Positions 25,821-60,148 of a DNA stretch of 64,000 bases are shown here, one piece after another. Under the pieces are notes generated by a model. It had not been told where the DNA came from, searched no databases, and was given only the letters and a program-made list of their open reading frames with translations. Source of the stretch: Capitulum mitella (taxonomy: Eukaryota > Arthropoda > Thecostraca > Pollicipedomorpha > Pollicipedidae); the NCBI GenBank assembly GCA_030062745.1, contig CP099845.1, positions 19,508,903-19,572,902 of the forward strand, in the 5' to 3' direction. Position 1 is the stretch's first letter. Each line of letters starts with the position of its first letter. A program made the translations under genes and the position numbers.

Positions 25821-28500
25821 GCTGGCGGTACAGCCCGACAGTGAGCTTATCCCGGGCTTAGGAAAGCAATCACCGTTCACAGGAAACTCCTACAGTAGCT
25901 ACAGTAAAGTCGGTAGCTTAGGACAGTCTATCCCCAGCAACACAACGAGACACTCGGAGCTCCTCGGACATCTCCACGGACTCCTTGGGAGTCCGTGGAT
26001 TCCTCGGACACCAGAAAGCGTCTGTGGAATTCAGGTTCTATGCGGACCTCGCGAAGTGTTTCATGAACAACTTACGAACCTGCAGGACTGTAACGACATT
26101 GGGCTATTTGAATTCCGCCACAATGTCACGTGTCCAGAAAGTGCAAAACATGTATAAGAGACCAGCAAAAGGTGGTTCCGAGCAAACTACGTTTGATGGG
26201 TTCTTGTCTGCGAGTCTCGGAAGGGCTGTTTTTTTTCACAGAGGCTTCTCAGACTCGGATTTTCCTCGACCTGTGCTTTTGAGCATTATGCTCTGAATTC
26301 GACTGCTTTGTTGTTTCTGTCTAGAATGCCAAGAATTCCATCTGATGTCAAGAATCATGCAGTTGTTTCTTATACTTTGCTAAGGAAAGCCACGTTAGTA
26401 TACTCGCCAGGGGCGCCGATTTCTGTAAATGATTGGAAGGGCCGAACCTAGGGCTCGACAACGTAACCTCACCCCAAATGTAGGTTTCTCAACGGATTTA
26501 GCCCACTTTAGTTCGCCCAACGGAAATCTATAATTTTTTTGTTACTGTTGGTCGAATAAAAAATTGCATCTATCCCCATGTATACAGATAGATATATAGA
26601 TAGAAGATAGAAGTATGGATATATACATCGCTTTAGACTTTATTCTTTGCTTTCCACCAATCTCTTATCTACTGCGGCCGTTCTTTTCGTTATCATTGCT
26701 CAATTACCTTGAAAATGCGCAGAAAATATTGGGTGGGCTCAAACTAACATTGGGTGGGCCCAGATCAACATTGGGTGGGCCAGGGCCCTCTTAAAAGAAT
26801 AAAAATCGACATCCCGATACTCGCAGTTCCTGGATGATGCAACGATCCATGCAGCGCACCCAGGCTTAACGTTCAGTTCCGTAATAAATGGGGCAGGGGG
26901 TGTTTCTCCGTCCCCGTCGAACAAAACCATGCTCAACATTTTTCTTTTTCAGAGGACGCGAAGCACAGCCTCTCGTGATCAACCGGAGTCCATGCATAGT
27001 TATAAACAAGACAGCTGCGAAACGTATACTGAGTAAAACATGCATGCATGGAACCACGGCCAAAGATCCTGGGAAACTGGGAAGGTTAAGACCTCTGCCA
27101 ATGTTCAGAGCTTGTAGCATTGGCACGACGGCAATAACTGGCAAGAACCGTTTTGAAAGAACAGAAAAGTACAGAAGAAAACTGATACATGTCTCTCCCC
27201 CACGCCCAATAGTTTTCGGAAAGTTTAGTTTATCCACCCACGTATGGAGCCATGTCATGCAACCATGCACCATGTAGACCACGTAACCATACGCGGGCTG
27301 CGGCAGCGACGTCCACACAGCGGGAGCTTGGCTGCCGCCGGCCGGCGGGCGGCGCTGGGCGGCGACCGGCCACCGTTCCCGGCAGCGCTCGAGATGGCCG
27401 GCCGCGCCGCGATCAAACCCGTCACGCCGATCAGAAACCCATTAGCGGCGGCTACCGCGGTCGCGTCGCGCCGGCCGCGCCGGGCGCCAACAAAGCGGCG
27501 CGCGACACCGGCGCCCGGCCGGGCGGCGCTCTAATGGGGCTCAGCGTCAGGCTGACGGGCGGAGGCGGCCGCGTCGGACCGCCCGCGACGCCGCCCCGCC
27601 CGGCCGGCGTCCTCCGCGGCTACCGGCCCGTCTTCGGGCGGAGCGGCGCGTCCGGTCCGGCCGGATCGGGCTGGGTCGGGCCGGGTCGCCGGGCGCCCCG
27701 TGGGACGCGGGGTTGCCGGGCGCCGGCTCGAGCATCCGCCGGCCGGCGGCGGCTCGTCAGCCGCGCTCGATAATGGATAGAGCACAGGCGGGCGCAGCGG
27801 CGGCCGGCGCGTAATTGATGATGGCACCTGCCCCGGCGCCACCGGCGGCTGCCGAAATTTAATCAGACGGCTGGGGCGGCGCGGATCCGGCAGCGACGGC
27901 GGCGTCCGGGAACGGAGGAGGCGGCAGACCGGCGGAGAAGGAAGCCCATGGCGGTCCTCCTGAGTCGGAGCCCATGAGACTAGGAAGAGTTCATGGACGT
28001 GGGAGGGAAAACAGGCAAATGTATGCGCTGAGATACGAGCTTAATTTGAAAGGTAAGGGATTCAGAGGTCATCTTGTGTTTCGAGAGGTTCACTCAGAAC
28101 CCTTTTTTGGTATGTAATGGCAAAGTGTTTTGAGCATCTAAAATAGGGCAACTCAAAGGCTTAGCGCTGCCCGTTTTACCAATATTTTCATTTACCAATA
28201 AAGCTTCATATTTCTGGCGTAAGTATACTCCGGAATGTATGCGATCTGAACCAGTGTTACACCGGTCGTAACCGACCCTGCTTTATTCTGTATCTGGTCA
28301 CTATCTACAATGGCCTGCAGTTTCCCTCAGGTGCCCTTCGTAACACACACCAGCAAGCCTCTGCGTCCAGTCCAGCTTCTTTCCTCTCTACGTTCCTTCT
28401 TTGCAACGCTTCTTCACCTGACTTAGCAGCTGCCTTCTGTGACCAGCTTCCTGCTCCGTCTCCATATCCACGGAGGTGACCGAGGAGCCGCTCCCTTCCT
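25821..28500. other. Intergenic with CpG island at 27.29-27.93 kb
   Basis: A GATA-like microsatellite lies near 26585-26620, followed by the short GGGTGGGCC repeat and a GGCCGG-rich island. No supported gene. Confidence 0.5.
26727..26785. repeat. Three copies of a (A)ACATTGGGTGGGCC 17-20 bp unit
   Basis: TTGGGTGGGC appears three times at about 20-bp spacing, with AACATTGGGTGGGCC in the second and third copies. Confidence 0.7.
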
Positions 28501-28842
28501 GCCGCCGCCAGTCCGTCAGGAGCTGTTCTCTGTTCCCTGCTCCCTCTCGCCGCCAGTCCGTCAGGAGCTGCTCCCTGCTTCCTGTTCCCTGTTCCCTGTC
28601 GCCGCCAGTCTGTCAGGAGCTGCTCCCTGCTCCCTGTTCCCTGTTCCCTGTCGCCGCCAGTCCGCCAGGAGCTGCTCCCTGCTCCCTGTTCCCTGGCACT
28701 GCCAGTCCGTCAGGAGCTGCTCCCTGCTCCCTGTTCCCTGCTCCTTGCTCCATGTTCCCTGTCGCCGCCAGTCCGTCAGGAGCTGCTCCCTGCTCCCTGT
28801 TCCCTGCCACTGCCAGTCCGTCAGGAGCTGCTCCCTCTCTCC
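28501..28842. repeat. Minisatellite with nested 7-bp subrepeats
   Basis: Seven units of 45-66 bp start with (C/A)GCCAGTCCGTCAGGAGCTG and then contain a variable number of CTCCCTG/TTCCCTG heptamers. Unit length varies through the heptamer count. Long open frames in all three plus frames are by-products of the repeat. Confidence 0.85.
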
Positions 28843-35273: not shown

Positions 35274-35590
35274 CACCACAGGGACAGTACTCTGCCGCTA
35301 CAGCCGTCACAGTGACGGAAGCCTGACGCCACAGCTATCATAGGGACGGTACTCTGCCGCCACAGCCGTCACAGTGACGGAAGCCTGCTGCCACAGCTAT
35401 CACAGGGACGGTACTCTGCCGCCACAGCCGTCACAGGACAGAAGCCTGCCGTCACAGCTATCACAGGGACAGTACTCTGCCGCCACAGCCGTCACAGGAC
35501 AGAAGCCTGCCGTCACAGCTATCACAGGGACAGTACTCTGCCGCCACAGCCGTCACAGGGACGGAAGCCTGCCGCCATAACTATCGGGGT
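35274..35590. repeat. 61-bp minisatellite
   Basis: About five units of 60-62 bp contain CTGCCGCCACAGCCGTCACA, GGAAGCCTG and CACAGCTATCACAGGGAC. Neighbouring units are nearly identical, suggesting recent expansion. Confidence 0.85.
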
Positions 35591-36705: not shown

Positions 36706-39700
36706 CTAGCCCCCGCCGTTGTTGGCGACATAGCGCCGGTAGACGGAGAGGCAGCGTTTGGAGACGGGCGCCGGCTGGCAGCTCACCACGCGCCGGTACA
36801 CCTGCCGGCCGGGCACAGACAGTAACCAGGAGAACAGCGGCCGATGATAAGCGCAGGGAAAACCGCAGCCAAACACCCCGGTGCACGCTCCAAACCGTGC
36901 CCATTCTCTTCATGATTTCACTGGGGGATACTGATGTTCTAAAAATGCATCGATTTATTAAATTTGCCATTTTATGCCAGAAAAATGTCGATTACAACAT
37001 TACGGGGCAGATATCATCCACAGACGTGCACAACAAAGTGCACACGGACCGCACAAACAACGATACGCCAGGCCGGCGACTCGTACGCGTGCTCTGCTGA
37101 CCTCCTTGGCGGCGCGGCTGGCGACCGGTGGCGCCACCTCCCGGCCGGAGTCCATCTTGAGCTGGGACAGCTGCAGGATCCGGACCGGCTGCTGGGAGGC
37201 GGTCCTCAGCGCCTCCCGCGGCGTCACGGACGGGGGCACACAGCACGCGCCCAGGCTGGCGTGTCTGCAACGGCGCGCGGACCTCACCGAGATGCCAGAA
37301 ACACGACAGAGACCAGCCCGACCAGAGTTAAACGGCACTGATATCCTGTCCAAATGGCTTAGTCAGCATGGTGGGATGGTCGACAATCGAGGCATTCAAG
37401 ACAACTTCTCCGGCATACCACGGCAACCACATGGCCTGAAATACCGTTGACTACACAGCAACAAAACAGACAACGGGATTTCAATTGGCACCGCTGAAGA
37501 AATCACGACCCGACAGGCCACGTTCACATAGGAGACTTTCTCGCGCATCGTCCGCTTGCTCCTCACACCCCGCGGTCGTCACCACCAGTAACCGCAGCCC
37601 ACATCCCACCACAGGCCGACCCCCGCAGTCCACCACCGCCTCCCACCTCTTGTAGAGGCTGACGTCCTTCTTGGCGGGCGTCCTCAGCTGGATGCCGTAC
37701 TGCTGCGCGGGCGAGGAGAGCAGAGCGGCCAGGGTCAGCGGCGGCCGCGGCGCCGGCCCGGACGGCCCGCCGGCGGAGGTCGGCAGCAGCGCCTCCTCCG
37801 ACGAGTCGGTCGGCTCCGAGCCGCTGTCGGAGGGGGGGGGGGGGGTGGTCAGACAAGGGGTGAGACACCTTGACCACCAAGGGACGTGACACGCCGACAC
37901 TATATTAAAGCAGCCCAGAGCGGGCACACGGTAGATCCCAAGGTAGCGGGTAGACATCGTCCTAATATAGACACCACATGCTATTTGGATTTTAAAGGAA
38001 AGTCATCTCTCAAAATGAATTCGTGCCGAGGGGCATGACTTGAACAAACCGGTGTCTTTACATGACTTATGGGAGTGGATATCAGACCATGTTCAAACCG
38101 GAAAAAGTTTCGCGTAGTCCTCCAAAAATCGGACCCAACCTCGGATCAAAACCACTGCCACCCCCGACTCGTCCAGCTCTGCGAACAAGCCAACAGGGCA
38201 GACAGGCCGGGGCACCGTCTGCCCGGGTGGTGGGTCCGATGTCCACGCTCTGGCGTCGGTCACCTGGACTCTGTGCCGGTCTGGCACGGCGTGGTGGGCG
38301 TCTTGCCCTCCGGACCTGCCAGAGGACGGCGCCGGATCCGCACGGCAAACGGCGACTCGTCCACAAACAGCGACGGCATGTAGTCCCTGGCGATAGACGC
38401 AAGGACGTGAGACGAACAGTCGTGACGCCATGTAGTCGCTGGCGATCACACAAGGCTGTGGGCCAAACAACGGTGACGACATTGCAGTCCTAGTGACGGA
38501 CAGAAGACGGTGAGACGAACAACTATAGTGACGACACGTAGTACCAGCCTAGTGACGACCCAATGCTGTCAGTCTAACAACGATGACGACATGAGGTCCC
38601 TGGGGACGACACAAGATCGTGACGAACTAAAATGAAATCCCGCGCTACTGACAATGACCACATGGCTTCATCACGGCTCCTCACAGTTTCCTGCAAATCC
38701 ACTTTAACTCAATCCTTCCCAACATTTTCCTGAAACCCCTTCACGAGTTCTGCACGGTTTCCAGACGCAACCAGCAGCACGTATTCCAGGCAGTCCTCAC
38801 CTGACCGAGTGGACCATGTTGAAGTCGAACAGCTCGGAGAAGCAGCTGAACTCGTGCGGCCGGTACTGCTCGCGGAAAACGTCGCCCCGCCGGTCCGTGG
38901 CCGACATCTTCTCCATGTGGCTGCACCGCTTGTCGCGCTCGATGGCGGCGCTCGGCAGGTGGCGCATCACCTCCGCAGTCCACCACTGGGTCGGGCTGGG
39001 AGGGAGACGGTACATCACGGAACGCTGACAGCGGGCGGGGATGGGGACGCACGCGACGTCAGGGAAGACTGGTGCTGGCTCCGATGAATCCTACTGTCGT
39101 GCAACCCTTGACGTCCCTCCCCTGGGCTGTGTAGCTGTAGCGGTTCATGTTCAGTTCCTTTGAGTTTCATACGGTTGTTGCAGAAAACCCGTTTCCGTTG
39201 ACGTCTTAGTCCTTTACGTTGTGATGCGGTTGTTGAGGTACGGCGGCTCGCCGGTAACCTCTGTGCCGATAGATCTCTAGGTTCCCTGGGATGAGGCTCT
39301 GACAGAAGCGGCTCATCTGTACCGGTAGATGTCCCTGTCCTATGAACCATGATGTGGTTGTTGCGGAACAGCAGCCTACCTGTACCGGTAGATGTCCCTG
39401 TCCTCTGGATTCTACTGAGGTTATTGCGGCAGAGCGGCTCACCTGTTGCAATAGATGTCCCTGTCCTCTGGATTCTACTGAGGTTACTGCGGCAGAGCGG
39501 CTCACCCGTACCGGTAGATGTCCCTGTCCTCTGGGCTCTACTGAAGTTATTGCGGCAGAGCGGCTCACCTGTTGCGAGATGTCCCAGTCCTCTGGATTCT
39601 ACTGAGGTTGTTGCGGCAGTGTCGCTCACCTGTTGCGGTAGATGTCCCTGTCCTCTGGATCATATTGTGGTTGTTGCGGCAGAGCGGCTCACCTATTGCG

Positions 39701-42700
39701 GTAGATGTCCCAGTCCTCTGGATTCTACTGAGGTTGTTGCGGCAGTGTCGCTCACCTGTTGCGGTAGATGTCCCTGTCCTCGGGCCTGTGGTGCAGCTGG
39801 TAGTCGCTGGGCAGCTCCCACAGCGCCGGCCGGCCCGGCTCGGGCACAAACGAGCCCAGAAACAGGTTTATCGCGTTCTGCTTGTCCGAGTCTGAAAGCC
39901 GGCACAAAATAGCTCATGTTCATGCAGGCTGGATACGTGATGAATTTCTGGTAAAGTGGGACAAAAGCGCTGGAGAGGCATCAGAATGATAGGGATACAA
40001 CAGAAACATCTAATCACAGACAAGATTTAAAGCAAACAAAATTGCTCATTACTGAAAAAGTCGCAGCGTAAATACAACCCTGCCACCAAGTTCTCTTCAA
40101 ACACCAAACAGCGATAGTCATGTAGTAGTCATGGAGTATCTTTTGCGTGTCATCACATATAATGTAAGTAAATCGTTAATCACAGTGCAAGTTCTGCAGA
40201 GTAACATGAAAAGCCTTTCTTATCCATTTTTCATTATTTCCTTTGGCTGTCTCTCATCTCCGCATGAATCATCTCCTGAACTATGCCCATCGCCGACGGA
40301 TATCTAAACAACAGATTGCTGGGAATATTGAACTCGAATACGCACCAAGCTTACAATTATCCCCATATCATCCAATCAACTTTCGTATGTTCACTTATGG
40401 TACCGGCAAATACTGCTCTGACTGACTGACCAGAGAAGGTGTTGCTGTAGTAGCGCTGCATCGTCTGGACGATATCGTTGCCCTGCGAGCCCCAGTGGGC
40501 CGTCTTGCGGTAGGTGCGGATGCGGTGCACCAGCTGGGAGCCGCCGTACTGCAGGGCCAGCATGTCGCCGTGGTCCTCATACATGTCCTCCAGGATCGAC
40601 ATGCAGTCCGTGTCGAAGTCCAGCTCCGGCGACGGCACGGCGCCCAGGCTGAACAGCTGGCGAGACAGGGGCGCTGAGGCGAGACAGGGACCGAGGCGGG
40701 GTCCAGGGTCGCTTCCGAGACGTCACAGCTAACGGCATAAAATGACCAATGAAATCGAGTAAAATGGGACATTTCCCATTTTCCCCGGTCGGGCACATCA
40801 GGATGGTATTAATGACCATCTCAGGGTGAGAACCCCGGCCAAATGTGGCGCTGGTCGGTCGGAACGCAGACGTCGTGCTCGAACATTGCGCCTGACGCAC
40901 GAGCCGGGGACAACACCTCACGTCAAAGTCAGCAGACGGCAAACCAGCACAGGCCGCTAAACGGCAGCGTTGACCACATGCATCCACGACAGACGCGGCT
41001 GTCTGGCTCCACGCGGTGCGTTTGACGTCAGCAAGATTAGAAAAGGCGTTGTATTTTTAGTGCTGAAAAGAACAAAGGAAAATGTGTGCTCCAGGAACAT
41101 TTTATACTCCAAATGTACGATCTTGTGCCTCCACCGAAAAGCTACATCAAAACCATGCTGACAAATTACTAACTCTGAACGCAAATGACTCTGCCTCTAT
41201 TCAAGTAAGAAGTACGTATGATAACTGACTTACTGACCGTTATGACTGACTTCATAACTGACTTACACCAAACAATGCCAACGTAAACCAGTCTTACTGT
41301 TCGCAAAATTTCTGTACTCCACAACAAAAAATATACACCGACACCACGAACAAAAACCAAATTTCCAGCCCCGGACGCCAGCCGCGTGTTGTCGTCCCTG
41401 TGACGTCAGCCGCATGGCGCCAGCCCACAACTCTGACCTGTGCGGCCAGCGCCGACTTGCCGATGGCGAACTGCGCCGTGTTCGTCCGGTCCAGGCAGTC
41501 GACGCAGTTGACCCGCACAATGCCCCGCTGTCGGAGGCCCCCGTTCGGTACCTGCGACGACTGGGGCGGACAGAGGCTGCGTCAGATGGCGAATGAGCGT
41601 GGCTGAGTAAACAGCGGACTGCGGAGAAACGGATGCAGCATATGCCCGTTCATTTTACAGTCCTCAGAGGACGCGGCAGCAACGGGGACCGAAGGTAGTC
41701 ACTGACCACGCACAAGCTGATCAACGAGAACATATTTTCTATCGTCGAGGATCAGAGTCACAAAAGAAACGGCAAACGGGACAGCAAAGACATACAGTAA
41801 GAGACGGCTAATCGCCGAATTCCGCCCTGAATAGGCCGTCGGCGCGTTAACGTCACCTCCGCCCGGTCCCCACTGGCTGTGACGTCATTCCAGGCCTTGG
41901 GCGGCGGTCGGCTCACCGCAGCCTCGGCCCGGCCTGCCCACACTGCACACGAACCACACTGGTGACAATGGCCACACACGAGCGGGGACCTGCCGCCACT
42001 CGGAGACGGGCACGCTCACCTGGACCGGGATCGGGGACGGCGACCGGAAGAACGTATTCAGAGGCGGCCGCGACAGGAAGATGCCCGTCTCCCTCAGCGA
42101 GGCGTTGGCGATCTCCGTCAGCCGCTGCATCACGCTCTCCCGCTTCCTGAGCAGGCACAAGAGACAGAGCATGCGAAGACGCAAGCACGTCAGCCATAGT
42201 GTAAAACCCTGACTTATCAGTGTCACCAGCCAAGACTGTCCCAGCGATACAGCACAATGTTTTGGAAAAAAATAAGAAAGCACGCGAACGACATCTGAAC
42301 AAACGTGAAGTCCACCAGGCATTTTTACCGAGAGAAAACTGAAATTCTGTCCTGACACGACGATGGCGGCACTCACAGCTTGTTGGCGCGCGCCATGTCG
42401 AAGCTGATGTAGCGGATGTGGAAGGCCGGCGGCAGGAAGAGGTTCAGGTAGGCCACGGCGCGACTGAAGGCGGCGTGCAGGAGCGACTCGTGCGAGCGCT
42501 TCTCCCTCTTCTTCACCAGGTTCACGACGAACAGCGGTGCGCCGTACCGCGACAGCAGGTCGTTCAGGTGCTTCCCTGCCGGCGGCGGACGGCTCGGGTG
42601 AATTCACGCGGCAGAAGCGGGAAATGGAGACAAAGGCTGGCAGGAAGACCCAGAGCGACACGATGTCGGGGACTGACAATGGTGAAACGTGGCGCAAAAC

Positions 42701-45700
42701 ACGCCCGGCGTGGTCCTTACCATCCGAAACGACGACGTACAAAATATCCCATGCTGATAAAGATAAAAATCATTCGATGCTGATCGAAAAAAAACAGCAA
42801 TGCAGTCATGTGGGTATATCCCTTTGTTTTCCCAGACACTTTCAGTTTCAGACAGCTTCAGAGCCGTCCGCAGTCTTCCCGGGATAGTAGCACCAGGACA
42901 CTATGAAGGTCACTTGGGTGATACAACTGGAGCCGCCAATGCCAGCGAGCACACCAAATCACATCACGTCTAGCTTTCCGTAAACGAAGCACACTGCCCG
43001 TCGATCATCAAAGATCTGACCACAAACCGTACATCGCCACTACACACCGTGTTTCGATACTCCGACGCTCGACTTCGTCCGGCACTCACCTGGCGTCACG
43101 TGACAGGGTCTCCCGGCCCGGCCCGGCACTCACCTGGCGTCAAGTGACAGGGTCTCCCGGCCCGGCCCGTCACTCATCGGGCGTCGCGTGACAGGGTCTC
43201 CCGGCCCGGCCCGACACCACCTGGCGTCACGTGACAGGGTCTCCCAGCCCGGCCCGACACTCACCGGGCGTCGCGTGACAGGATTTCCCAGCCCGGCCCG
43301 GCACCACCTGGCGTCACGTGACAGGGTCTCCCAGCCCGGCCCGACACCATCTGGCGTCACGTGACAGGGTCTCTCGGCCCGGCCCGGCACTCACCGGGCG
43401 TCACGTGACAGGGTCTCCCGGCCCGGCCCGGCACTCACCGGGCGTCACGTGACAGGGGTCACACAGCTCCATCTGGATGGGCGGCTTGGGGATGCGGCTG
43501 GTGTCCTGGAACCAGTGGCAGGGCACCGAGCCGCGGATCTGCGGGCCGGCCGAGCGTCAGAGGCCGCCGGCCGCCGCCGCACCAGAGGTCGCAGATGAGC
43601 CAGTCCCATTCGGTGTCAGCAAAGACAGGTACCTCATATGCAAGCTTAGGTATCGAGACAATTAACAGCCTTGAACAATGCTGCAAACGGTGTTGTTTTT
43701 TGGTGTCAGAGAACACCAGAAAATATGGCCTCCAGGAACATTTTATGCTCAAAAGCTTGATCCCATCGGATCAAGCTATCGGATGATCTACATCTACATG
43801 ATCTATGATCTACATTGGAAAGCTACATTATAACCATGTTGACAAATTTCTAACTCTGCAAGCAAATGACTCTGTCTCCATCCAGTAAGAAGTAGGTATG
43901 ATGTCATAACTGTCTTACACCAAGAGCATCAGCTTAAAACAGCATCAGTAATGCAAAATTTTGTACTCCAAAGCAAAAACTGTGTTCCTTTACCAAGAAC
44001 AAAAACCAGATCTCCAACTCTGGTCTTGAAGGATCTTATGGGTCAATAGCAGTTTTCAAACTTGGTTCGTATTCGAGTACACATACACACACAAAAAAAA
44101 ACGGGGCAGAGTCTTTAAGCGCAGGTCCTCAAAGGAGTCAACCTCAAGCCAGCGTTCCGGGGAAGGTTCTCCGATACCTGAACGTGAGAGCTGAACATGC
44201 CATTCTGCAGGGACGACACGCAGGCGTCGTGGACAATCTGCTCAGTCTCCACCTCGTTGGCCACGTCCCCACTAAAGCTGGCGCCGCGCTTCAGAAACCG
44301 GGTACCAGCGTACTTGCTGGAACAAAACGTCATGTCTGAACGGTTTTGTTACACAAGACGACGAATATCACGCGGGCCTTAAGTCATTTCCAATCAAACA
44401 TTGGTGCCATCACAAACTAATCACGCACCTGAATGGTCTAAAAACAGTGGATGACGTCTTCTCCATTACGCCGAAAAGGACAGCACAGCTCACACAACAA
44501 AGCGCACACACGCTTCTGCAGCCGACACGAGACAACTCCACGCCGTCGCCCGTCGCCCCCCTCTTCCCACGAGCGCTCCCCCGCCCGCGGTCCCAGCCGG
44601 CGACCCACCTGGATCGGCGGGCGATCAGCGTCAGGAACAGGTGGCGGCCGTGCAGGTAGAGCGTGGCCTGGCCGATGTAGCCGTGCGTCACGTACAGACG
44701 CCACTCCCAGCCCAGCTGGCGCTCGGCCGGCGCCAGTAGGTGGCCGTTCCAGACGAAGCGTCGGTGCGGCTCGGGGCGCACGCCGACCGTGGGCGGCCGC
44801 GCCCGCGCGCCCGGCGCCAGGACGCTCGGCGACGCCGTGCTCACGGCGTAGTCGAACTGGGCCTCCTCCAGCGGACCTGGCCGCGGAGGGTGGACGTGAA
44901 CCGGCGGACGCGTACAGAGAAGCACAGCGAGTTATGTGGCCAAACTGTGCCTCTTTTCATGGGATCTGGATGCAGAGGGGTTAATGTGAACTGGAGGTCA
45001 TGGCTTTATACGGCCATCAACAATGTAATGCGCAGTAGCCCAAGCACTTCCATTAGCTTTATGTGGTCTTGACAGATGAAGACAAAACAAGAGTCCAGAA
45101 AATTGTCAATGACCTGTTTGTACTACAGTTCCTGGCAAATTATGACATTTGTGCAGCATCTCCATCAATTCGCGGGCGAGTTCACGCGCAAAAGATTGCG
45201 ATGCATTACATTCAATGCCACATCGTACCTTCGCCGGCCGTGTTCGTCTTGACGAAGCCGTCCCCAAACACGGCGTTCACATCCTCCGGCGTCAGGCGTG
45301 GCTCGGCGGCGTTGTACTGCAGCGTGTGCGTCAGGTCATAGCTGTAGCTGGAACGGCCGAGGAAGCGGCGGCTATTCTGTTATCATTAGCGGCGTGGATC
45401 GATCGCCACGTGCAGCAGACTTGCAACTTAACAGTGTCCGCGCCTCTGTCAAAGTCTTCTGACGGAAGCCGTGAAACAGTCAACACTACGGGCACGCAAA
45501 CCTTGCACATTCTCCCACATCACGACAGTTTACTGATGGGCCAGGACCTAATCAAACTGCTAGGCAGTAAAGCCAATCAGCCTTTCAGCGGCATCAGCAG
45601 ACAGATGGAAGACGTTACTATAACGGTAACTCAACGACAGCCTCAGCAGCCCTGACGCGGAACATATCGGAAGACGACCACGTCCTGTCTGCCCACCTGA

Positions 45701-49784: not shown

Positions 49785-52700
49785 TCACAGCTCGTCCCGG
49801 CGGCGCGGGGTGTCGGCGCACTCGCAGAGCTGCACCAGCGCCCACTCGCCGGAGACCATCCAGCGCGGGTCGGAGGCCGTCAGCGCCTCGCGCTCGGCCG
49901 CCAGGCCCGACACTAGGTCGGCCTTGAGCGTGCGCAGCGCCACCAGCGGCGCCGGATGGAAGCCCTCCAGCGAGACGCAGAAGCGCGTGTCGTGCGGCCA
50001 GTTGCGGTCGCCCAGCAGCTTGCGGTAGTTGAGGTCGCCCTTGAAGATGAGCAGGTCGGCGGCCTGCAGGCGGCGGTACAGCGCGGGGTCCTCGCTCTGC
50101 ATCCGGCTGAACGGTAGCGGCGTCGTCCAGAAACAGTCGGCCTCAAAGCGCCACACGCCGGAGTCGATGTAGTGCTGCCACCTCTCAGCCAGTTTGGGAA
50201 GTGCAGGTTTGTCGGCGGCCGCCAGCATGCGCCGTAGCATCCATTGCAGGTCCGCCGACGTGGTGTCAGAGACGAACCACGGGATCGCCTTGATGTGGAA
50301 AGTCATTCTCTGCGCGATGCTGAGCGAGGTCAGCAGGTCGGCCAGGCAGAGGTCGGAGAACAATTCGAATCCAGCGTTATCCATTATGATGTCTGAAAGC
50401 ACAAAAACACAAATATTTTACCAGGGTTCCAGGTGAATATATTCCGGCACTAAAGGAGCCAGGAATGGACATTTTACACATTATTACTCTTGCACCTCAC
50501 ATACCATATGCTTTCAGCCTGCCATGTTACAATAACTAACAGGCTTTTGGCAAAAAAAAATAATGACGAAAAAAAACATTTTGGCAAATTTATCCAGAAT
50601 CAAACAGAAATCCAGCCCAATATCACCTTCAACATGAAAACTAAGCAACAGACCCTAGATATGTTCCGCCAATGTAAGCTCAACTGCACTGCTCACCGAT
50701 CTGAACATCCTGCTGGTTCTTCAGCATCTCCAGCTGGGCAAACACGCGCTCGCTGTCGTTGACCAGCACGAAGCTGTTGAGCTCGACCAGCTGCGTCAGC
50801 GGCGAGGTCTCCTGCGAGACGTGCGCGCCCGCCGAGATCGACAGATCGTTCTTGTTAGCCCACAGAGACATCTGTCGGCCGAGAATGAAACTGACGGACG
50901 GTACACCATCTCGTGAGACCATTTCTCGAATCGTTGTTTTCGTTCTGTCTATCTTTCTGCCTATCTGTCTGTCTATCTGTTTGTCTTTCTGCTACAACGA
51001 GAATAAAAACTGTTTGCACATTATAATTATTCCTCCACACTGCATAACCAAGTAATGTTCATCTTGATTACACAACCACGAATGGAATGGGCCATTGGCC
51101 ACTGCCTAAATGAGAATATTTAACAGTCCGGGCAAAACGACAAACTACACTCGATTTCGTACCCCGAGGAAGTCCGAGAAGGCCCTTTTGATTTCGGTCC
51201 GGGGTCAGAGCGTCTGGATCCGCCACCATCTCCAGAAGATGCTCCCCCAGCAGCTCGATGGCCCCCAGAGAAGCCTCAAACGTGTCTCTCTTCTGTTGTC
51301 GGAAGTAGTCGTAGTCGTGCAGCTCTCCGCTGACGACATAAGGCAAAGCGTCAAATGACGTCACCAGGACCGCAGATGGCTACACTAAGCACAGGCCGTG
51401 GCTTGCGGATCAGCACAAAGCACATCGAGGTACTGAAGGGAACATCAAAACTTCGTCTCATGATCAAGGGGTCAGACACATATAAAGTTTTGTATTATTC
51501 TCGGAGGAAATGGCCCATCTGAAAAGTGTTTAGCCCCTCTGATGTTTTGGACCTTGGAAATAAAGTTTGTGGGGAGCTTGCGTCACAGAGAGTGTTGCAT
51601 AATAACGATAATCGTATTCCGTGTACCCGTGCGCTACGATAACTGTGTTCGGTACCTCCTGTTTGCTCTGTGGAATCGCCTAAAAGGTACCCCCGGTGGG
51701 TACACAATACAAGGACTGAGAAAATACACGATTTAACTGTTTTTTTTTTAGTATTTAATACGTTTATATCTCATCCAGTTCAAACTCGCATCAATTCAAG
51801 GCAAGGTCATGAAAACAGAATAACAACTTGTCCTGAAAAAATCACCCAGACACACAGAGCAAAAAACATTACAAAAGCACAGCTCAATTTTACTTCTCTG
51901 GAAACATCCCATGGCAGTCCGCGCAACTTCACATGAACCGAAGCATTCGCCGGCCAGCGCTGGACACTCGCCTGTTCTCCAGGACCTCGCGGATCTTCCT
52001 GTACATGTAGCACTCGACGAAGAGCCACGGCGCGGAGAACCAGATGGGCCGCTGGCCATCGTGCGACAGCTCATCCAGCAGCCGGTTCCACAGCGGCACG
52101 TCCGGCGCCGAGCCGGTCAGCGGCTGCAGCGGCTTGTTGCGCTGCATTGTGCTCTTCAGCTCGGACAGCTGGCCGTTGATTGACTTCAGCTTCTCGCGCG
52201 CCGCCTGTCGTTTAAATAAGCAGGCGTGCTGCAGGCAACGTTCTCCGAGGCAGGCCGTGTTCACAAGGAATCTGGTTGTTGAAAGTGGCATGTTTATTGT
52301 TTCCAAATTAAGACGTTCTGTACATTTACAGTATACACACCAAATGAAGGATGTCTGCCATGAAATGAGCATGACTTTTCAGGAAAAGATTGCAAGATTT
52401 GGATTTATAAGAAAGCAAACTTAAAAATTCAATCAATTTCGTATTACATGCATCCATTTTTTTTTAACTTCTGACTGGTGATCTGGCAATCAAGATTTTG
52501 ACTTACTTCACCATAAGTTTCCCCTATGTTAATCTTCTCTCTGTGTAGCAGGTCAATCACTTTTGTCAGAATGACTGGCATTCTTTCTGAAATTGTCTTG
52601 TATGCAAATGACCTGCAAATAGTGGCAATGTTCTCACATGCTGCTATAATACAAATGCTCATATGACATCAAACATCCCTTCCAAAGCAGCATTGTCATT

Positions 52701-55623: not shown

Positions 55624-58311
55624 GACTGATGTTTGCTGTAGCAAAACAAAAATGAGTATTGTGCCAGTAAAATATGCAGCAGGCATCTGGAAGTAAAAGG
55701 AAGAACATAAACCAACACACACAGGATACAGGATGCACAGGAGAAGTGACAAAATTTGTAGTTATGTTCTAAAAACTTCATATTCAATCTCATTCTAGTG
55801 CTGCTGCTTTTTGACATACCAAGGAATCAAGTTTGCTAAGCAGAACCTCATCTGACTTGAAATGCACACCTATGCTTGCATCTTTTGAAACTGCATGGAC
55901 TTTTTACTGGCATGCAAAATGTTACACTCTAACCACACAAAATATGTGACCCAAATTCAATGCTGACAGATTTAAGGATTTCCACCTATGCACACAACAA
56001 TTGAGGTGAAGGTTGCCAACTACTGGCTGTTCTGCCCCAAATTAAAACAGAAAAATGAAACAAAATTAGTACATAGCTTAATTTTTTCCCATTCTAATGG
56101 TTTCTGGTTTGACCTATTCAGATCACCTCATGACCTCTCAGGTCAATGCAGAAAATGGTACTATGGCTCTGACTTCATCACAGTGGACTTACAGCAGAAG
56201 GACCTTCAAATGATCATTTCACAGCTAAGTAGTTTTAAATCTGACCCAGCCTCTGTATTCAGCAAACATTCTCTTTCTTAGGATCAAGGTCAGGCTAATG
56301 AGAGGCCAAACATCAAAATGACCCATTTCACATTGCTAGTACCAGACACCATTATCCATTACTACAGAATAAAGTTAAAATAATGCAGGAGGGGTAACAT
56401 TACTTCTAAAATAAAAAGGAAAACCACTAAAATAAGGTTTTGCTGGTTTTAGACATTTCCCCTTCAAATACCACCGTTCCGCAAAAATGGAGTCATGCTA
56501 TACCATATTGTGTCTGCAACGCCTACGCCTGGTAACTCAGAATTAATATTTTTAAATGGGTTAAAAAATGATATTCTTGAACACGTTTCCTGAAACTACG
56601 GAAAAAATATAGGCAACACGCATCAATGAAGAGCGCGCCGTGGGATACCAGAGCAAAACGTTGATGGAAGAAAATATCGGAGAATGCACACGGCGAACGA
56701 CTTGTCCTGATTGACACATGAGCGTCATAAACGTCACACTGCTCCAGGAATTTGGAAGCAGTTTTTATCTATAGATTTCCTTCTATTGCTCCATGGATGC
56801 AGGATACCCACATGCGCAATCAGTTTCCATGCATTGCGGACAATTCATTTTCGCTATTGTTCTCGGAAGTACTGTAGGCTTCGCATACGTCCTGATGACC
56901 TCTAAACGACCAGGAACTTTAACCCCTGTCGGTGTTGCATTGAGCTTTAAAAAAGTTCGACACCACCACCGATACTGATCTGCATGCTTGCACTACATAT
57001 AATTCCCAAAGCTCAGTTCTCACAGCAATGCCAGCCACGTTTTCAAAAAGACTGCAAAACTGGACGCATCCATAGATGCTCAGCAGATAAGCCTTCTAAT
57101 CCTTTGTCGACGTTACATTTGCTAGCATGCGTGTACAGTGGTAATTCGTCCCCACCCCCCATCTGGCTCGTCGCCCATCATGTGCCGGCTACTGGCCAGG
57201 GGCACACGCCGTCCATGCAATGGTTCCCTATGTCTGAGCGACGGCGTTAGCGTCAGCAATCGGCCAACTAGGCCCCTTCGGTCCCCGTGCCGCTGCTGTG
57301 CACCGTCCGCCCGCCGGCGGAAACGCAGCTGGATTTGTCGTGAGCGCCTCTGTGGCGCCAGGTTCGGTCCCGTCCGGTCCTCGCGAGCCTGCCACCGACA
57401 GGACGGGCGTGCGCCCCGTATCCGCCGGAGCCCCGTGTCCGCCGGATGGGTCCGCTCCCACCGTGTCGCCCAAGGTGACCGATGAATCAGCTTGAACTGG
57501 GAGGGAGGGCTTGGGAAAGCCGGGAGAAACCAAACTGGGGCCGCGACTGCATGCGTTGTCTTTTCAGAGTCGATGCCACACTTCCGATAAGCCACTAAGC
57601 GATGCCACGTCCAAAAAAGTGTGACTGCCTTGTTTGGATGTTCTACCATACAGTCACCTGGATCAAGTCAAAGGATGTGATTATGAAAAAAGGAGGAGAT
57701 TTGGGCCTGTGTCATTTATTGTAACTTTGGCACATCTCGAGATCTTAGTGGTTGTCGAGATTTTTTCAAAAAGGAGCGTACAGCATTCAACCCGGGATTT
57801 CATGGTTGGCTAGTTATTGGGCTATTTATCGACGTCCTCGCCTGCATGAGGCCGAAGCACCTGCACCAGCGGTCGTAAGACGACAGCGTCATGACCATTT
57901 GCATCATTCCTGACGTGAATTGTCCCGGTCCAACAGCGATGATTCATTTAAACTTCGCTACTGAATGCGACAAAGTTACCGTGCAAAGCGCCTGATGGCG
58001 TTCCTTCAGCAGCCGCAGCCATAGCACCCACAGCAGTAAACGACATTGTTACGCGGGCCGATGTGCTGTATAGCCGTGGTGCCGTGATCGAGAGGCTTGC
58101 ACCAGCATGCCATTGTGTCTCGGCTACTCCTTCGCCCTCCTCCGCATGCATGTGGTTGCACGGGAAAGTAAACAAGACTGATCCAAAGCTACGTCGATGT
58201 AAGCGAGGCTATGACGGAGTGTCGTCGTTAATCGACGCTCGAGGCGACCTCCGAGGCGCCAGGGGCGGTCTGGAAGTCCGTCCGGCGGCAGTGTGCGCCG
58301 GAGCCGCCAGG
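55624..58311. other. Divergent intergenic region between ARMT1 and the DEG/ENaC gene
   Basis: AT-rich to about 57.1 kb, then GC-rich at 57.14-57.5 kb. It separates a minus-strand and a plus-strand gene, so both promoters should lie here. No TATA or Inr element is convincing. Confidence 0.45.
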
Positions 58312-60148
58312 ATGGCCGGCCGTGCAGCCGACGGCCGGAGGAGGATGACCAGCGCCGTCCGCTCCGGGCTGCACTGGACGGCGCGCGCCGCGCTGCTGCT
58401 GCTGCTGATGGTGCTAGTGTGGGAGCAGGTGGTGGAGTACCGGATGCAGCCGGTCAGCTCGACGGTGGAGAGCCGGCTGGCACCCTTCCCCCGACTGACG
58501 CTCTGCCCCGGCAAACTCCTCGACGACGGCCTCCTGCTGGATCAGTACCGCCAGCTGGCGAACGGCTCCATGGCGGTCGAGGAGTTTTATCGTCAGGCGA
58601 CGCTCGATATCGTGGGCGGCGATAGCCAGTATAACATCATGCGTGTGCATGATAAAGAGACCAACCCCATTCCCAGTGATGGGCCGCTCGGCGTGTGGCG
58701 ACGCAAGTTCTATCTGATTGTGCGCCATGACCGCTCCATGCCGATGCGGTGTCTGACGTTCGAGCCCAGCTCGCGCCTGCACGAGTCGGCCAGCAGCGTG
58801 ATCGAGATGGCTCTGGTGCTGCTGGCGTCGCTTCTGACCACCGACGAGTTCCAGGTGTCCCATCGGCTCTTCGTCCACGGATCAGAGGAGCCGAACGTGG
58901 GCGACCTGCCGTACCCGGAGCGCGGGCTGACGGTGCCGACGACGGCGTCGATCGAGCTCGGTCCGGGCCGCGTCGGCCGCCGCGTGGTCTCGGCGCGGCT
59001 CAAGCGGCTGGTGAGCGTGCGCCGCCGGCCGTGCCGATCCGAGCCCGACTACTCGGTGGCCCGCTGTCTGAAGGAGTGTCTGTGGCGGCGGCTGGCGGCG
59101 CGCACCGGCTGCCGGCTGCCGCACATGGTCTCGGCCGGCGTGTACCTGCCCGAGCTGCGTGGTCCGCTCGACCACCTGCCCGCCTGCACGCGGCTGGTGC
59201 AGACGGAGTGGATGCGCGGAACCTGGATTTTCCCGACCGAGCCGCCGAAGTTGCCCTGCGTAGAGCAGAGCAAAGCGGCAGATCGGTCCGATCTTGGCAG
59301 CAAGTCCATCCCGCCGGAGGCAGAGAACGACACGGACCGGGGAGCGTCCTTTTCCCCGCGCGTCGTCGTCGATGGAAACCTCAACCAGTCTCGGGCTTCA
59401 GGGCCGCCGCCGCCTCCGCCGCCGCAGTCGCCGCCGCCTCCTGTGTTCTCTGCGTTTCCGAGACCGCCGGGGTCGGAGCATTTCGTGTCTCAGGCTCTTC
59501 TGCAAGACGTGAGGGGCTGTGATTGCCCGGCCGCCTGCCGGGAGGACATCTACAACCTACGACCGGAGACCGATGTATGGGGAGTTGCCCTGTCTCCTGG
59601 CAATTTTCCGATGTATAACTGCGTGGCGCCGCTGGTCCTCAGGCTAGATCTGAGCGCAGACCAGGTTCAGGAAGTCCATTGCGTTCACGCTGAGCACTCT
59701 GCTGGCCAACATCGGAGGGTTTCTGGGACTGATCACTGGTATTTCACTCTTCACTCTGGCCGACCTCGTGGAGGTTTTGACGTGGGGCGCCGCACGGCAT
59801 TGGATTGGCAAATGGCAGAATCGGGTCAACATTCCAGACGTTTGGGTGAAACGCACACTCACCCAGGAACAAAGAACACAGGATGGCCACTACAAGAAGC
59901 AATGGTCGAACCATGCACACGGCCACCGACTGACCAAAAACGGCCAACGCCCCCACCCACTGCCCAATCGGCAACTGGGAAATTTCGCATTGCCAGCAAC
60001 AGTTTGGCAGCAGCCGGCAGCAGTCGCCGTCCAGAACGCGCAATCGGCTGAGGCCGTCGTCACATGGGAGGAGGGAGAGTGTCTTGCCGACGCCTGTACA
60101 ACAATATCACCGAACACGGTGTTAACGCGGCAAACTAGACACACCTGA
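58312..60148 (+). CDS. Degenerin/ENaC (pickpocket/ASIC-like) sodium channel subunit, frame disrupted near TM2
   Basis: One uninterrupted exon region, about 611 residues if one base near 59654-59665 is disregarded. Seen in order: a short N-terminus, TM1 (AALLLLLMVLVWEQVVEY, about residues 26-43), the post-TM1 signature FPRLTLCP, a cysteine-rich ectodomain with the family pattern EPDYSVARCLKEC and LPAC near 240-300, a proline-rich insertion near 364-380, the pre-TM2 motif CDCPAACREDIY near 400, and TM2 (LANIGGFLGLITGISLFTL) with the G-x-S filter (GIS). TM2 and the C-terminus lie one frame over: the first frame runs to VLRLDLSADQ and the next resumes at TRFRKSIAFTLSTLL. DEG/ENaC channels are trimeric amiloride-sensitive cation channels of the plasma membrane. 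I do not see the usual HG gating motif before TM1, so the true start may lie in an upstream exon. In-frame upstream ATGs exist from 58063. It could be a pseudogene, an assembly error or a real gene with one sequencing indel. Confidence 0.82.

Follow-up and report, generated by a model that had tools for sequence, protein, structure and literature searches.

Lancelet mirages are minisatellite-like tandem duplications of exon-intron boundaries that carry repeated splice signals (PMC3087553, PMC3902484). According to these two papers, mirages occur in Adh3, in the globins BflGb6 and BflGb9 and in TnC, with similar repeats in PGBD5, and their length is reported to be variable. Reported RT-PCR results suggest that they leave normal splicing undisturbed (PMC3087553). 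The same paper also presents a model in which introns are gained by tandem duplication of AG/GT-containing sequence. Outside lancelets, minisatellite units at the exon-intron boundaries of human segmental-duplication genes reportedly can alter splicing (PMC2812944), and in C. elegans a minisatellite has been linked to alternative splicing (PMC4039745). A search that reached titles, the openings of abstracts and few subscription journals returned no boundary-repeat literature beyond the two lancelet papers and the human paralog paper PMC2812944. Nor did it return barnacle papers on tandem repeats at splice donors or on minisatellites in introns.

Two arrays of this kind lie in a single gene of the window, by which we mean the whole 64,000-nt stretch of Capitulum mitella DNA that was analysed. 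The initial annotation had named this gene FIG4, and the assignment holds. A 44-residue translation of the exon adjoining the first array matched human Fig4 (7k1w_F) at 1.3e-9, and a by-eye assembly of the window's exon pieces matched it at 1.9e-149. The genes neighbouring FIG4 encode an ARMT1-like phosphatase domain (minus strand, window 49785-50417) and a DEG/ENaC-type (ASC) channel (plus strand, window 57952-60051). The parts of FIG4 that bear on the arrays are listed below, with a slash at each exon-intron junction.

43439-43538, minus strand: FIG4 coding exon IRGSVPCHW...CDPCHVTP, ending CCG/GTGAGT at the first donor of the second array and joining in frame to 42575
42576-43438, minus strand: FIG4 intron bearing the second array, placed by the frame of the join
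43079-43457, minus strand: second donor-spanning array of FIG4 (TRF: 43-44 bp units, 8.7 copies)
39756-39891, minus strand: 136-nt FIG4 coding exon bordering the authentic donor, its last codon incomplete (2 bases), placed by frame and by homology to 7k1w_F residues 597-631
39750-39755, minus strand: authentic 5' splice site CAG/GTGAGC, its use predicted from frame and homology
38996-39755, minus strand: array-bearing FIG4 intron of 760 nt; a splice to 38995 leaves the frame open
39307-39781, minus strand: first donor-spanning tandem array (TRF: 63-bp units, 7.6 copies, 84% matches), each unit made of about 29 nt of exon end and about 34 nt of intron start
39311-39692, minus strand: downstream donor copies of the first array, after 39693, 39630, 39569, 39506 and 39443 (GTGAGC) and 39380 (GTAGGC), with a dead copy after 39317 (ATGAGC)
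38801-38995, minus strand: downstream FIG4 coding exon, starting with a split codon S; its probable 3' end at 38801 (CAG/GTGAGG) is placed by consensus

An array of units that join the end of an exon to GTGAGC had been annotated at 39200..39790. The array is present, with the earlier start lying 107 bp beyond the edge that TRF finds. It had been credited with about eight near-identical donors. Near-identity was borne out, and the count comes to seven GT donors including the authentic one (six GTGAGC and one GTAGGC), the GT being lost in the eighth copy. Upstream of donor 1 the repeat takes in 29 nt of the exon, and the unit thus spans the exon-intron boundary. One unit is 61 bp long and the others are 63 bp. 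One copy has a 2-bp deletion and several carry substitutions, coding changes included; the copies are not maintained as codons. Units 2 and 4 are identical at 60 of 63 positions, which suggests recent turnover.

We then followed the reading frame through each donor. From the authentic donor at 39756 the frame runs on as ...IYRNS-PTQWW. From all six downstream GT donors, and from the dead copy, the product is ...IYRNR followed by a stop, exactly the AGG-TGA read-through that had been proposed. Because every donor below the first brings a TGA one codon past the junction, only 39756 is expected to be productive. The authentic donor shares its predicted U1 pairing energy of -11.1 kcal/mol with three other copies; the remaining copies of this array are predicted to pair more weakly. 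Among copies 2-8, conservation is 0.873 in the nine donor columns, 0.875 in the rest of the exonic part and 0.779 in the intronic part. These values are consistent with turnover in which the donors are not clearly protected. The intronic columns are nevertheless less conserved than both the donor and the exonic ones, and this leaves room for weak selection.

The second array has the same design. Its repeat reaches 19 nt upstream of its donor 1, so here too the unit spans the exon-intron boundary, and it holds five GTGAGT donors, with several other copies damaged. Splicing from 43439, where its first donor lies, keeps the frame, and the joined product aligns with human Fig4 ungapped at that place. 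The four downstream GTGAGT donors all give ...GDPVT and a stop (frames were computed for these four; the array also holds two GTGGTG copies). In both FIG4 arrays, in-frame joins that follow human Fig4 come only from the first donors. Predicted U1 pairing in the second array is -13.3 for the two most distal donors versus -10.5 for the first. With four donors of the first array equal in U1 pairing, and the most distal donors of the second stronger than its first, pairing strength leaves the choice of donor undecided. The window has further tandem arrays: one of two steps, 31 and 61 bp, at 35277-35585, beyond the identified FIG4 exons, whose units have no strong donor, and a complex nested one at 28498-28836 (TRF periods of 45, 52, 66 and 111 bp).

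How do these arrays compare with the systems described before? In lancelet mirages and in FIG4 alike, the repeat unit spans the exon-intron boundary and carries splice signals, and the FIG4 units of 63 and 43-44 bp fall within the 10-160 bp given for mirages. Mirages, however, occur in cephalochordates and the FIG4 arrays in an arthropod. Mirages also include both kinds of boundary, whereas the FIG4 arrays are donor-side only, and the one acceptor word that we tried has no genome-wide excess. The FIG4 arrays are therefore mirage-like in form and not lancelet mirages by descent. The human boundary repeats are described as differing between paralogs and as tied to novel introns or alternative transcripts (PMC2812944); their likeness to FIG4 is one of position at the boundary. 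With the model of intron gain by AG/GT duplication (PMC3087553) the arrays share duplicated splice signals as raw material for introns, but the model yields a new intron, while the FIG4 copies sit in an existing one and no new intron is seen.

We consider it likely that the arrays are tolerated tandem duplications, in which the exon-proximal donor is used, the other copies are decoys and mis-spliced messages are nonsense. Such an array would start when a stretch across an exon-intron junction is duplicated in tandem. Slippage or unequal exchange would then add further copies, every one with a donor and the ~29 nt of exon before it. The exon-proximal copy would stay in use, most likely since exon definition prefers an exon of 136 nt to one of 199-512 nt, and the remaining copies would become intronic decoys. 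Choice of a decoy would bring in the TGA and truncate the product, so such a message should undergo nonsense-mediated decay. Since neither the first donor nor the frame is harmed, duplications of this kind may persist and are presumably neutral.

An alternative, which the initial annotation had raised along with noisy donor choice and a copy number that would differ between individuals, is that the competing donors tune FIG4 output: part of the transcripts would be sent into nonsense decay, in a proportion set by copy number. Several copies are indeed near-equal in U1 pairing, every downstream donor choice tested is non-productive, and one gene holds two such arrays. However, lancelet mirages are reported to leave splicing undisturbed (PMC3087553, PMC3902484), and the donor columns in FIG4 are no better conserved than the adjoining exonic columns. 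We regard tuning of FIG4 as unlikely and find it unsupported.

We next looked beyond the window, at the assembly of 477,042,490 bases in 16 contigs. A genome-wide profile search for Chitin_bind_4 gave 150 scored matches and 627 candidates, with large clusters at G000:C10:20.95-21.07 Mb, C10:28.58-28.75 Mb, C9:23.43-23.58 Mb and C13:17.71-17.86 Mb; a cuticle family of such size marks an arthropod. A lancelet origin, considered at first because mirages were described there, was rejected on this count; a search for the GFP family gave 0 matches, which does not prove that the family is missing. G+C content ranges from 0.44 to 0.57 across 20 sampled stretches of the genome. We counted pairs of donor words, using each pattern read backwards as its control. 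The perfect donor word CAGGTGAGT occurs in 188 pairs 20-50 bp apart, versus 13 for the reversed word. Single occurrences number 3,851 versus 2,374 (1.6-fold), which puts the pair excess per site at about nine-fold. Pairs within one array are not independent, and the 100 pairs listed of the 188 form 33 clusters. On the most cautious comparison, of these 33 clusters from the listed pairs with the 13 control pairs taken as separate clusters, the excess is not significant (p = 0.22); scaled to 62 clusters, which rests on extrapolation, it gives p = 1e-4. CAGGTGAGC, the word of the FIG4 array, forms 528 pairs 40-70 bp apart versus 12 for its reverse, a 44-fold ratio that would shrink if the single word itself exceeds its reverse. 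In 344 kb the single word occurs 7 times versus 4 reversed, five of the seven inside the window. Grouping its first 100 pairs as listed leaves 35 clusters. The first two contigs hold 32 of these, and scaling this up puts the genome-wide number at about 180. Pairs of CAGGTAAGT, with the GTAAGT donor, number 3 versus 1 reversed across the genome, the word itself being absent from the 344 kb. For the single acceptor word tried, TTTGCAGG, there is no pair excess in the genome, the control being the higher (36 versus 106). A weak permutation test on 80 sample arrays found AGGTGAG at least twice in two arrays, both in the window, a count reached by 4 of 105 letter orders; AGGTCAG appears at least twice in four (4 of 420 letter orders reach this) and AGGTAAG in none. 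Two donor arrays about 26 kb apart, G000:C6:6607092-6607209 and C6:6633480-6633597, have identical listed matches; going by these matches, it looks as if the locus was recently duplicated, array included.

An excess of this kind could mean that spare donors are beneficial, an array of U1 sites beside an exon aiding its recognition, and that arrays are selected for. Paired donor words are in excess and the acceptor word is not, as selection for spare donors would have it, but a mutational bias would yield the same excess. Moreover, the GT is lost in one copy of the first FIG4 array, and several copies of the second are damaged. Such a benefit therefore seems improbable to us.

Do the other arrays also lie at exon ends? 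Of the clusters formed by the 100 listed CAGGTGAGT pairs, 19 contain more than one pair, and we examined the flanks of the 12 that come first in the list; three of these 12 came without a 3' flank. Flanks were scored for codon use with a score trained on the exons of the window, and a 90-nt stretch counted as exon-like if its score exceeded the 95th percentile for random sequence. Such a stretch precedes the first perfect donor in 8 of 12 arrays and follows the array in 0 of 9. This count leaves out both FIG4 arrays, whose exons trained the score, and an array from sampled sequence (L002, below); it covers CAGGTGAGT arrays, the sole CAGGTGAGC array with its flank examined being that of FIG4. 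One exon-like flank matched a PDZ domain at 6.1e-10 and one an I-set domain at 0.003, which is under the Pfam cut-off. The other six hit no Pfam family, nor did the best-scoring frames of L039 and L040. By codon score no exon shows at L032, L033, L034 or L040.

The remaining donor-spanning array comes from 280 kb of evenly placed sample sequence and lies at the end of an exon.

L002:9491-9730 (G000:C1:2009491-2009730): donor-spanning array with donor AAG/GTCAGT and periods of 36 and 105 bp; its exon encodes ...GINAETFCACPGRQPCPLLWDPEDGRSVTHGSNQYK

We take the product of this exon to resemble an arthropod secreted cysteine-rich protein; the exon has no Pfam match. Judged by eye, L002 is the only one of four AGGTCAG arrays with a clear exon at its edge. 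At L016:6999-7501 lies a minus-strand array of ~32-bp units with CAGGTC-type words and 11 AGGT-type donor-like words, and a clear edge exon was not found for it.

These flanks bear on the idea that tandem duplication favours a GC-rich word with CAGGTGAG in it for a reason outside splicing, and that donors merely include this word. The strong enrichment in pairs of GTGAGT and GTGAGC words, against only 3 versus 1 for GTAAGT, would agree with this, as would the 4 of 12 arrays that lack an exon-like 5' flank by codon score. However, the GTAAGT comparison has little power because CAGGTAAGT is so rare. A duplication-prone word also sits poorly with the one-sidedness of the flanks, which are exon-like in 8 of 12 cases ahead of the first perfect donor but in 0 of 9 past the array, and with the two exons that match protein domains, the I-set match being the one under the cut-off. 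We therefore find this explanation doubtful. That the array was collapsed or falsely expanded in assembly is very improbable: units that differ by substitutions and a 2-bp deletion, together with paired donor words at many loci, are hardly an assembler's invention; the exact copy count may still be off.

Tolerated duplication would account for FIG4, but neutral tolerance alone leaves the excess of paired donor words over the reversed word unexplained. Tentatively, donors may be preferred birthplaces of minisatellites in this arthropod genome: a process tied to donors, be it duplication linked to transcription or splicing, or selection that favours spare donors, would turn many exon ends into arrays, and two FIG4 introns would have been hit independently.

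Minisatellites that span donors had previously been described in a handful of lancelet genes; here they appear in an arthropod, and twice in one gene. Extrapolation from the paired donor words points to perhaps more than 100 loci, and if this is true, such arrays are a recurrent outcome of genome evolution. This genome-wide donor excess is the part worth following. With their nearly identical donors the arrays offer natural tests of splice-site choice by the spliceosome, and they also allow one to ask whether donor repeats seed new introns.
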